A DNA stretch of 64,000 nucleotides from Aquificota bacterium. GTDB lineage: Bacteria; Aquificota; Aquificia; Aquificales; Hydrogenothermaceae. A program made the position numbers and the translations under genes. Position 1 is the stretch's first letter. Each line of letters starts with the position of its first letter. Shown here piece after piece: positions 29,975 through 38,953 of the stretch. Location: contig JAADDZ010000016.1 of the NCBI GenBank assembly GCA_013153635.1, positions 1 to 64,000 on the forward strand. Reading direction: 5' to 3'. The notes under the pieces are model-generated. The model saw only the letters and a program-made list of their open reading frames with translations, did not search any database and was not told the origin of the DNA.

Positions 29975-30772
29975 TTAAAATTCTATTCCTAACTCAAGAT
30001 ACGTTCCTTCCCATTCTATATTCATTTCTGGGTCTGACTCACTTCCATCAGGAAGTTTCTTTAGAACCAAATGCCAGTATCTATACCCCATTCCTGCATA
30101 GATTATACCAATTTCTCTAAATGTTGTTAATTTTAATTTTCCCATAGCCTTTAAGTCTAAGAAAAATGAGTTATAAAAAGCTATTCCCTTTAGTTCTAAA
30201 TCTAATGCCAAGTCAAACAAAAAAGGGATAAAAGGGATATTCGTTTCATTTCCTACATACAAAAGAGGAAGCAAAGTCTCTACATCATTTCTCTCTTCTT
30301 GATTAAATCTCTCTGCCTTTGCATAGAGATACCCACTTATAAACTTTACCGCAAATCCAAGTTTTGGGTTTATATATGGAAAATCAAGGTCATAGTAGAT
30401 GATAAAATCGTTATTCTGGTTAAATACCACTTTAGAAGTAACTTTGTCGTATGCGCTAAACTTTATACCGAAGATACCTGTATCTACAGGTATCTTTACA
30501 ACATTTTTTCCATAATGCTCAAAAGGTAGAGATTCAAACTTGAAATTAGGAAGAATAGGTAAACCTATGTCTATATAAAAGTGGGTTTTTTCTGTTCCTT
30601 TTAGTCCAAAAGTTCCATCTAAGGTGTATGTTTTCCCATCTGTCTTAAAGTACCCTGTTACGTCCATCTTCGGTTTTGAAAAACCAGCCTTTAGGTGCAT
30701 AAAAGGTTTGGCATATGAAATCGTAGTAGTAAGCAAAAGTATCAAGGTAGCTGTTATCTTTTTCACATTCAC
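29975..30772 (-). CDS. Outer-membrane beta-barrel paralogue (copy 2)
   Basis: A 265-aa protein with a signal peptide (cleavage near TISYAKPF). It shares with copy 3 the blocks HLKAGFSKPKMDVTGYF, FGLKGTEKTHFYIDIGLPILPN, GIFGIKFSAYDKV and GYRYWHLVLKKLPDG. The C-terminus ends TYLELGIEF. It is much closer to copy 3 than to copy 1, so these two probably arose by a later duplication. Outer membrane location is inferred from the signal peptide and terminal Phe strand. Confidence 0.8.
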   Translation of the reverse strand: MNVKKITATLILLLTTTISYAKPFMHLKAGFSKPKMDVTGYFKTDGKTYTLDGTFGLKGTEKTHFYIDIGLPILPNFKFESLPFEHYGKNVVKIPVDTGIFGIKFSAYDKVTSKVVFNQNNDFIIYYDLDFPYINPKLGFAVKFISGYLYAKAERFNQEERNDVETLLPLLYVGNETNIPFIPFLFDLALDLELKGIAFYNSFFLDLKAMGKLKLTTFREIGIIYAGMGYRYWHLVLKKLPDGSESDPEMNIEWEGTYLELGIEF

Positions 30773-30779
30773 CTTCCTT

Positions 30780-31589
30780 TTAAAATTCTATACCTAATTC
30801 GGTAAAATAATCGTCCATCTTAATATCCATCTGGGGGTCGGCAGGCTCTCCATTTGGCAGTTTTTTTAGAACCATGTGCCAGTATTTGTACCCTACTCCC
30901 CAGTATATAACACCTATATTTCTAAAAGCGGTTAGTTTTAACTTTGTTATAGCTTTTATGTCTACATACCAAGTATTAAGGTATGCAAAACCTTTAAAAT
31001 CTGTTTCTAATCCTAAACTAAAAATATATACCAACGGCAACTCTGTCTCAAATCCTAAATAAAAAGCTCCTCCCATTGTGTTTATATATTTTTTTTCTTC
31101 TTGTTTTAATTTTATTGCCTTTCCGTACATCCAGCCTTTTAACCATTTTACAAGTATACCCGGTTTTACTTTTAGTGTGGTAAAAAACAACGGTACTTTT
31201 ATATCATAATAAAATGTTACATCATAGTTTATATGAAATACTATTTCTGCTTGAACTTTGTCGTATGCTTCAAAATTTATCCCAAATAATTCTACACCCT
31301 TTGGAAACTTCATCCACTTTTTACCGTAAACTGCGAATGGTTGATTTTCTATCTTTACATTCGGGAGAAAGGGGATTCCTATATCTACATACCAATGGTC
31401 TGTCTCTACAGGTTTGAATCCAAAATGTCTCTTTGCATAGAATTTGTAATCAAACTCTCCAACGATAAAATACCCGTCCATATCCAATCTTGGTTTTGCA
31501 TAACCAGCTTTTAGATGCCAAGTTACCGCTGGATATGCTGTGGTAGCTATGCTTATAGTAAGAAAAATAAATATAAGAATTTTCTTCAT
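30780..31589 (-). CDS. Outer-membrane beta-barrel paralogue (copy 3)
   Basis: A 269-aa protein with a signal peptide (cleavage near TTAYPAVTW). Shared blocks with copy 2 include HLKAGYAKPRLDMDGYF, VDIGIPFLPN, FGINFEAYDKV and VGYKYWHMVLKKLPNG; the C-terminus is FTELGIEF. The spacing between copies is short (7 and 17 bp), consistent with one transcript. The ATG overlaps the stop of argD by 4 bp, so the outer-membrane genes continue the lpxB-argD transcript. Function unknown. Confidence 0.8.
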   Translation of the reverse strand: MKKILIFIFLTISIATTAYPAVTWHLKAGYAKPRLDMDGYFIVGEFDYKFYAKRHFGFKPVETDHWYVDIGIPFLPNVKIENQPFAVYGKKWMKFPKGVELFGINFEAYDKVQAEIVFHINYDVTFYYDIKVPLFFTTLKVKPGILVKWLKGWMYGKAIKLKQEEKKYINTMGGAFYLGFETELPLVYIFSLGLETDFKGFAYLNTWYVDIKAITKLKLTAFRNIGVIYWGVGYKYWHMVLKKLPNGEPADPQMDIKMDDYFTELGIEF

Positions 31590-37870: not shown

Positions 37871-38953
37871 ATGGCAAGGCTGTTTTTTGATATATATTCT
37901 TGTGTACATACATACTACAAACCTTCTTCTTGTAGTAGATGTACTGATGTTTGTCCTATTGACGGTGTTATTTCCCTAGAGAACGATAAAATCCAGCTAA
38001 ATTCAGATAACTGTGTATCTTGTGGAGCTTGTGTTGGAATCTGCCCTACAGAGAGCTTTTCTTTAAACGGTTTTGACCCAAAAGAGTTTTTTGATAATTT
38101 CTGTGATAGAAAATGGGACTTTGTAAGCTGTAAGCTAAATGTTCCATGTTTAGCTTCGATAGATTCTCAATATCTAATATCCTTAGCCTTAAAAAGAGAA
38201 GAAGATATAGTCCTAGACATGGGACACTGTGACAGCTGTTTTATTGGAAAACTAAAATCAAGGATAACAGAAGCGGTACAAGAAGCAAACTATGTACTAG
38301 GAAAACTAGAAGTACCATACGAAATAAAATTAGAAAACATCTCTTATAAACCAGAAAAAAAAGAAGAACCTTCTAGAAGGTCTTTTCTAAAGAAATTTAC
38401 AAAAACTACAGCATCATTAGCTTTTTGGGCAGTATCCCCAAATCTACCGATAAACGAACAAGACCAAGAAATAGAGCAAGCACCAAAGAATATAGTTGAA
38501 GAAAAAGTAAACCCAACCAAAAGAAAAGTACTGTTAGACACACTAAAAGAAAAACAGTTAGACCTCAAAGACAAATATGTAGAAGTTGATAAGATAACTT
38601 TTAGTTCTCAAAAATGGATAGAATGGGAAAAATGTACAAACTGTTTTATTTGCTACAATATATGCCCTACAGGTGCTTTAGATGGGGGACAGGATAGATT
38701 AGAGATACTATTTAAACCCTCGTTGTGTATAAAATGCCGAATCTGTCATGAAGTTTGTCCAGAACAGTGTTTACACTTAGAAGAGAAACTAAATCTAGAA
38801 GATTTCGTATACAAAACAAAGTCCCTTATACAGCATGTAATGATACCCTGTGCAGAATGTATGGTTCCTTTCTCCTACAAAAATGATGGAGAGTACATAT
38901 GCCCTCGATGTAAAAAACTAGATGAAGAAGTAAAGGAGTTGTTAGGTCTTTGA
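37871..38953 (+). CDS. Multi-cluster iron-sulfur protein with internal twin-arginine motif
   Basis: A 360-aa Cys-rich protein. Residues 21-58 form a ferredoxin-like part (CSRCTDVCP and CVSCGACVGICP). Residues 78-123 add CDR, SCK, PCLA and HCDSC. A mid-protein SRRSFLKKF (168-176) followed by a hydrophobic stretch (about 180-192) resembles a Tat signal. A second ferredoxin (about 251-297, CTNCFICYNICP and CIKCRICHEVCP) is followed by a C-terminal zinc-ribbon-like part (CAEC…CPRC). The protein could carry electrons in an oxidoreductase complex. Family name not recognised; related proteins accompany formate dehydrogenase or molybdoenzyme loci (recollection, unchecked). It overlaps sfsA at the stop. 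Confidence 0.8.
   Translation: MARLFFDIYSCVHTYYKPSSCSRCTDVCPIDGVISLENDKIQLNSDNCVSCGACVGICPTESFSLNGFDPKEFFDNFCDRKWDFVSCKLNVPCLASIDSQYLISLALKREEDIVLDMGHCDSCFIGKLKSRITEAVQEANYVLGKLEVPYEIKLENISYKPEKKEEPSRRSFLKKFTKTTASLAFWAVSPNLPINEQDQEIEQAPKNIVEEKVNPTKRKVLLDTLKEKQLDLKDKYVEVDKITFSSQKWIEWEKCTNCFICYNICPTGALDGGQDRLEILFKPSLCIKCRICHEVCPEQCLHLEEKLNLEDFVYKTKSLIQHVMIPCAECMVPFSYKNDGEYICPRCKKLDEEVKELLGL

Follow-up and report, generated by a model that had tools for sequence, protein, structure and literature searches.

How clusters are delivered to apo-molybdoenzymes before Tat export, and how these enzymes are then handed over to the translocon, is not settled. For the Tat-exported Mo-bisPGD enzyme NapA, the Fe-S accessory protein is NapF, which a review describes as cytoplasmic, with labile [4Fe-4S] clusters at four tetra-cysteine motifs; according to the same source NapF is a binding partner of NapA in E. 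coli and was required to reconstitute the clusters of Rhodobacter sphaeroides NapA in vitro, and its actual role has been questioned (PMC10609526). Chaperones of the TorD kind are reported to bind Tat signals in a manner orchestrated by the hydrophobic core of the signal (PMC3316669). A ‘fer4’ protein encoded in TorD-fdh operons has been described (PMC4464133), and internal Tat motifs are reported for longer Fe-S/Mo proteins with dual Sec-Tat insertion i.e., an actinobacterial Rieske protein, the polyferredoxin PFD of MLMS-1 and Sco3746, in which Sec-inserted helices precede the Tat motif (PMC5449189).

The stretch of DNA analyzed here (the window) comprises 64,000 nucleotides of a Hydrogenothermaceae genome (Aquificota; contig JAADDZ010000016.1, positions 1 to 64,000). 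A single ORF at 37871-38953 on the plus strand, as are all features of the protein given below, starts with ATG, has no internal stop and encodes a 360-residue polyferredoxin with an internal Tat-signal-like segment. Thirty full-length family sequences were aligned, the homologues being 50-72% identical to the query; this alignment omits four of the 34 genomes with the protein (G084, G092, G089 and G093, of which the last two hold incomplete copies). Twenty-five cysteines are identical in all 30 sequences, that of the window protein included, and the window protein would have capacity for up to four [4Fe-4S] clusters.

The N-terminal 2x[4Fe-4S] ferredoxin module (residues ~1-66; 37871-38068) was recognized by Pfam Fer4 families and by PDB structure matches over residues 1-66, and its eight cysteines (C11, C21, C24, C28, C48, C51, C54, C58) are invariant. 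The C-terminal 2x[4Fe-4S] module (residues ~250-305; 38618-38785) matched Fer4_9 at residues 254-300. Formate hydrogenlyase subunit 6 (7z0t_F) matched the C-terminal half over residues 245-354 (Z 9.2, rmsd 5.7, 109 residues aligned), with neither the N-terminal half nor the Tat-like segment aligned; the shared fold is a general ferredoxin one. Between this module and the segment lies a KNIVEEKV..P.KR..LL element (residues 205-228; 38483-38554), in which K206, N207, V209, E211, K212 and R218 are invariant. The initial annotation had described the end of the protein as zinc-ribbon-like and had pointed to extra cysteines in its front half. The former description holds: in the zinc-ribbon/rubredoxin-like end (residues 325-348; 38843-38914), C327, C330, C344 and C347 are present in all 30 family sequences and in all 24 of the wider alignment described below. 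As to the latter, C87, C93, C120 and C123 are kept throughout the family, but C78 of the ‘CDR’ motif is found in one of 30 sequences.

These four conserved cysteines belong to a small alpha/beta domain (residues 80-152; 38108-38326) that was modelled with a pLDDT of 90.5 when residues 66-152 were submitted alone. The Pfam FlpD profile (PF02662) matched 10 of 26 family members weakly (best E 0.0056; 26 of the 30 rows were tallied), and it gave no match to the window’s own four-Cys stretch up to E 5. Comparison of the model with PDB structures placed 8rvu_F and 5odh_D in the two top rows with Z-scores of only 4.4 and 4.2; Foldseek returned no confident match for the domain (5odh_D ranked 38th, E 6), and a PDB sequence search with it returned no real match. 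The complexes of these two chains are listed as Elp-Hdr and heterodisulfide reductase/[NiFe]-hydrogenase, and we take the chains to be their FlpD/MvhD subunits. The FlpD/MvhD subunit relays electrons. The weak profile matches and the two top structure rows suggest, as a lead and with no membership claimed, that the domain is perhaps MvhD/FlpD-like with a possible extra metal site.

Like NapF, the window protein is an Fe-S protein with a twin-arginine motif, and BLASTP aligned both of its ferredoxin pairs with E. coli NapF (residues 16-64 and 212-298; E 7e-6 and 2e-5). The two proteins differ, however, in that the pairs come in opposite order, the motif of NapF (ASRRGIL) lies near its N-terminus, and the MvhD-like and zinc-ribbon-like parts are found only in the window protein. 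Moreover, BLASTP placed the N-terminus of NapF on the KNIVEEKV..P.KR..LL element, so that SRRGIL falls on PTKRKVLL and not on RR169. The C-terminal part reached 24.7 bits with the NapF model TIGR00402, whose cut-off is 102.2; this places the protein outside that family. In hhalign comparisons NapH reached a probability of 90.1 and NapF 89-90; the likeness to NapF is thus not specific, and generic ferredoxin similarity contributes to it. The ‘fer4’ protein, presumably the same as the alphaproteobacterial fusions compared below, shares with the window protein two ferredoxin pairs and a four-Cys end, but carries ~250 extra N-terminal residues and has neither RR nor a hydrophobic segment at the site. 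NapG is a Tat-exported ferredoxin whose signal RRRFLRDVVRTAGGLA aligns with the internal segment, although that signal is N-terminal and NapG has no four-Cys end like that of the window protein. The molybdoenzyme-linked polyferredoxin is of a known kind; here it carries a conserved internal Tat-signal look-alike. Judged from titles and the opening lines of abstracts, none of the papers among the matches listed dealt with this protein, which is no proof of absence, and none came up on internal twin-arginine motifs.

The Tat-like segment RRSFLKKFTKTTASLAFWAVSPNL (residues 169-192; 38375-38446) lies between the two ferredoxin modules, with a charged linker before it and an acidic one after it. 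SRRSFLKKF spans residues 168-176 and RRSFLK residues 169-174, followed by TKTTASLAFWAVSPNLP. R169, R170, L173, K174, F185 and W186 were identical in all 30 sequences, and F172 was found in 28; the G092 copy (locus L078), read separately, also carries the motif. This invariance indicates that the motif is more than chance. Mean pairwise identity was 0.36 for residues 151-168, 0.71 for 169-187 and 0.29 for 188-205, i.e., the segment forms a conserved island within poorly conserved linkers. Among the 60 non-overlapping ORFs of at least 100 residues in the window, the pattern RR.[FIL]LK occurred in the polyferredoxin and in one other, which is truncated by the window edge and reads RRIILK. In the AlphaFold model (30-row alignment, mean pLDDT 79.4), residues 169-187 form a helix at a pLDDT of about 50 or less, with values below 50 at residues 165-167 and 178-209 and about 50 between them. 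The segment is therefore probably exposed, outside either fold, and a motif buried in a folded domain, which the initial annotation would have counted against a Tat signal, is unsupported by these values. The twin-arginine segment reported there thus proved to be both real and conserved.

The motif lies at residue 165-171 of all 30 aligned stretches, far from the N-terminal position usual for Tat signals. Hydropathy and length disfavor a bilayer-spanning anchor, one of the readings first offered: the uncharged run is 9-17 residues, and 29 of the 30 sequences have no 19-residue stretch at the level conventional for a membrane helix (a hydropathy of at least 1.6), as judged from hydropathy averages rather than a topology prediction. 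The one sequence that reaches this level peaks at residue 88, inside the four-Cys domain.

By sequence, the segment does resemble a Tat signal. An hhalign profile of nine C-terminal halves (nine of the 30 family rows) aligned with the E. coli NapG Tat signal over 30 columns around RR, with a probability of 77 and an E-value of 2.1e-5, which is a single-comparison value; the same alignment was obtained by BLASTP and with the full-length hhalign profile, the hhalign probabilities spanning 74-77. The Pfam TAT_signal profile (PF10518) gave no match to the window protein up to E 1, but it is weak as a control, scoring the N-terminal signal of a linked molybdoenzyme at 20.9 bits against a cut-off of 22.7 (E 3.3e-4). 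We compared the internal segments with 21 distinct signals of the linked molybdoenzyme and with ten other molybdoenzyme signals. The uncharged run was 12 residues in all 21 linked signals and 12-26 in the other ten, and mean 15-residue hydropathy was 1.16 for the internal segments, 1.63 for the linked enzymes and 1.14 for the others. AxA was found in 12 of 30 internal segments, compared with 20 of 21 linked-enzyme signals and 6 of 10 others, and is absent from the window protein’s own segment. Tryptophan was present in all 30 segments and in none of the 31 signals, and the net charge behind the segment was strongly acidic (-3.8), compared with 0.0 for the linked enzymes and +1.1 for the others. 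Conservation, core length and hydropathy do not discriminate between export and docking; since several of these measures take values that real Tat signals also show, Tat-dependent export of the C-terminal half retains a place among the readings weighed below.

A scan of the genome collection yielded one near relative. Outside the Hydrogenothermaceae, plasmid-encoded relatives were found in Sulfurovum (35.7% identity over 98%), Azoarcus and Sulfuricella. Others occur in two further Aquificota families (f2 and f3) and in alphaproteobacteria, where they are ~650-residue fusions in formate dehydrogenase operons. A search for additional plasmid copies related to those of Azoarcus and Sulfurovum brought up nothing new. 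A wide alignment of 24 proteins was built from eight of the 30 family sequences and 16 from outside i.e., four f2, seven f3, two alphaproteobacterial (trimmed of ~250 N-terminal residues), and one each from Sulfurovum, Azoarcus and Sulfuricella. Both ferredoxin pairs are present in all 24, as is the four-Cys end, with one N-terminal cluster degenerate in Sulfurovum. The Sulfurovum homologue (L062 8995-10131) has lost the MvhD-like cysteines as well as part of that cluster; a Met lies two positions ahead of its RRSFL.

Homologues without the twin arginines, which the initial annotation had named as grounds against its idea, do exist, all of them outside the family: RR is retained in all 30 family sequences, in the three plasmid copies (SRRSFLGNASLKG in Sulfurovum, GRRQLFRRLLGRG in Azoarcus, GRRAFFSFLAGKA in Sulfuricella) and in one of seven f3 proteins (DRREFLSALFGEEE), and is missing from the remaining six f3, all four f2 and both alphaproteobacterial proteins, i.e., from 12 of the 16. 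The FW hydrophobic segment was found in none of the 16, including the four that have RR plus F/L. From this we conclude that the architecture is independent of export and that the protein can work without the segment. Judged from few non-family sequences, the Tat-like form appears to be a linker helix that was elaborated in this lineage specifically.

The plasmid operon of Sulfurovum has the order TtrB-like, NrfD, molybdoenzyme, TorD, polyferredoxin, the same as in Hydrogenothermaceae, with the molybdoenzyme reading in two overlapping frames (L062 5004-8172). In Azoarcus, Sulfuricella and the two alphaproteobacteria the gene is near molybdoenzyme and TorD genes, and in the f2 genome G033 it is downstream of a psrABC-like operon. 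The f3 copies whose surroundings were read are not in a TorD/molybdoenzyme operon. Molybdoenzymes occur in all 11 f2 and f3 genomes; TorD was found in all seven f3 genomes, one of which has RR in the polyferredoxin, and in two of four f2 genomes, none of which has it. By these tallies TorD is an imperfect predictor of RR.

Within the Hydrogenothermaceae, the protein was found in 34 of 41 genomes. Of these 34, 30 have a TorD-family gene (PF02613) on the same strand, 128-182 bases upstream as measured from the Pfam match. Where the cluster was read, its order is DMSOR type II alpha (Tat)-beta-gamma, TtrB-like, NrfD, a second molybdoenzyme (Tat), TorD and the polyferredoxin. The second Tat-type molybdoenzyme (~1071-1098 residues) reaches no curated cut-off; in G075, of the same genus as the window’s genome, the type II DMSO-reductase-family complex has its beta subunit above the curated cut-off and its alpha subunit below it. 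Adjacency to TorD is lacking in G075, in the window’s own genome (G000), in G076 and in G095 (69% complete), where TorD was not found. In the first two the gene lies inside a block of MFS transporter gene, polyferredoxin gene, sfsA and uvrA, and in G076 it likewise adjoins the MFS gene. The window’s genome has the cluster on a separate contig (L096), where it ends with TorD; the polyferredoxin gene has moved away. L096 itself encodes two Tat-type molybdoenzymes: one is a type II DMSO-reductase-family complex, the other an unclassified enzyme of ~1090 residues with TtrB-like and NrfD subunits.

Matches to molybdoenzymes, TorD and TatC were found in 39, 37 and 34 of the 41 family genomes, respectively. 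G104 (99% complete) is the only one of them in which neither molybdoenzyme nor TorD was found; the polyferredoxin is absent there too, and TatC is present. The other six genomes without a polyferredoxin match are G073 (85% complete) and G085 (70%), in which TorD was not found either, G074, G070, G094 and G096. G074 has TorD but lacks the neighboring sfsA along with the polyferredoxin gene, which makes an assembly gap likely. TorD and a molybdoenzyme without a polyferredoxin match were seen in G096 (97% complete), G070 and G094, and G096 is a counter-example to co-occurrence unless it is fragmented. In G093 (55% complete), contigs C31 and C38 hold split matches to the protein with stops, which are either decayed copies or assembly errors.

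We consider it about as likely as not that the window protein is a cytoplasmic, NapF-like maturation polyferredoxin for Tat-exported molybdoenzymes, with an internal look-alike that docks and is not itself translocated. In such a scheme, the polyferredoxin would supply electrons or [4Fe-4S] clusters to an apo-molybdoenzyme before its export, as NapF may do for NapA, and the internal RRxFLK with its hydrophobic segment, exposed in the linker, would serve for docking, with TorD, TatBC or the membrane surface as the partner. It is mainly the operon linkage that points to loading or reduction of the linked enzyme’s clusters in the cytoplasm, and given such a role the internal peptide would be best explained as a docking element. 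What was observed is the sequence, its conservation, the flexible position of the segment, the operon linkage and the lack of the hydrophobic segment outside the family; location, role and docking partner we infer. In addition to the linkage, we counted in favor of this scheme the joint absence in G104, the relatives without the segment, the lack of a transmembrane-length stretch in 29 of the 30 sequences, the lower AxA frequency than in linked-enzyme signals and the precedent of NapF. Counted against it were the alignment with NapG, the overlap with real signals in core length and hydropathy, the mismatch between TorD and RR, the sub-threshold NapF score, the unspecific likeness to NapF, and G096, G070 and G094. 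A putative maturation ferredoxin with its own Tat look-alike would be a candidate for connecting cluster loading with the TorD chaperone and with TatBC.

The segment could instead be a Tat signal that genuinely works from an internal position. The N-terminal Fe-S half would then stay inside, and Tat alone would export the C-terminal ferredoxin and zinc ribbon, to give a two-sided protein or, if cleaved, a periplasmic ferredoxin. The RRxFLK-type motif with its hydrophobic core in every family member, the flexible position, the NapG alignment, a core within the range of molybdoenzyme signals and TatC in 34 of 41 genomes all suit this reading. Internal Tat signals function in the dual Sec-Tat proteins, a polyferredoxin included, but there they follow Sec-inserted helices (PMC5449189), of which 29 of the 30 sequences here show no equivalent. 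In the structure of TatBC the n-region of the signal is described as peripheral (PMC13323110), from which an N-terminal extension looks possible. An uncharged run of 12 residues or fewer in 18 of the 30 sequences is nevertheless short for a stable spanning helix, the AxA frequency is well below that of the linked enzymes, the invariant tryptophan is foreign to molybdoenzyme signals, and relatives from comparable operons lack the hydrophobic segment. On balance we consider a genuine internal signal unlikely, if the least so of the alternatives. Slightly less probable still is its strict form, a signal working without any Sec-inserted helix while the folded N-terminal Fe-S domain stays cytoplasmic and the C-terminal ferredoxin and zinc ribbon cross in folded form. 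To our knowledge, export of a C-terminal half by Tat alone, without help from Sec, would be new; if the segment is truly exported, Tat would accept a signal placed behind a folded domain.

Peripheral attachment, in which the hydrophobic helix and nearby lysines hold a cytoplasmic protein on the inner membrane and RR goes unrecognized, would make use of the predicted helix at 169-187 with its invariant K174 and F185-W186. It would also accommodate the f3 proteins, which at this site keep a short FLxxLF-like helix without RR (EEEFLKELFGEEE, EDILSELFEG). Invariant RR, L and K at exact Tat spacing, however, exceed what lipid binding needs, and the four non-family relatives with RR plus F/L but no FW hydrophobic part do not fit; we regard attachment of this kind as doubtful. 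Two proteins made from one message, with an internal start near residue 160 yielding a short Tat-exported ferredoxin, had been proposed in the initial annotation and would agree with the Met that precedes RRSFL in Sulfurovum. No start-like codon occurs at residues 131-175 of the window protein, though, and at no column between 121 and 173 of the family alignment is one present in more than four of 30 sequences, which makes this proposal highly improbable. Overall, the internal segment of this putative maturation polyferredoxin is more likely an intracellular docking handle than a working export signal.

Elsewhere in the window, two adjacent ORFs on the minus strand (29975-31589; 265 and 269 residues) resemble a tandem pair of paralogues for a protein that is secreted or resides in the outer membrane. 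Similar ORFs were seen in a near relative (L001, at 712-1509 and 1519-2331), with a further ORF beside them.
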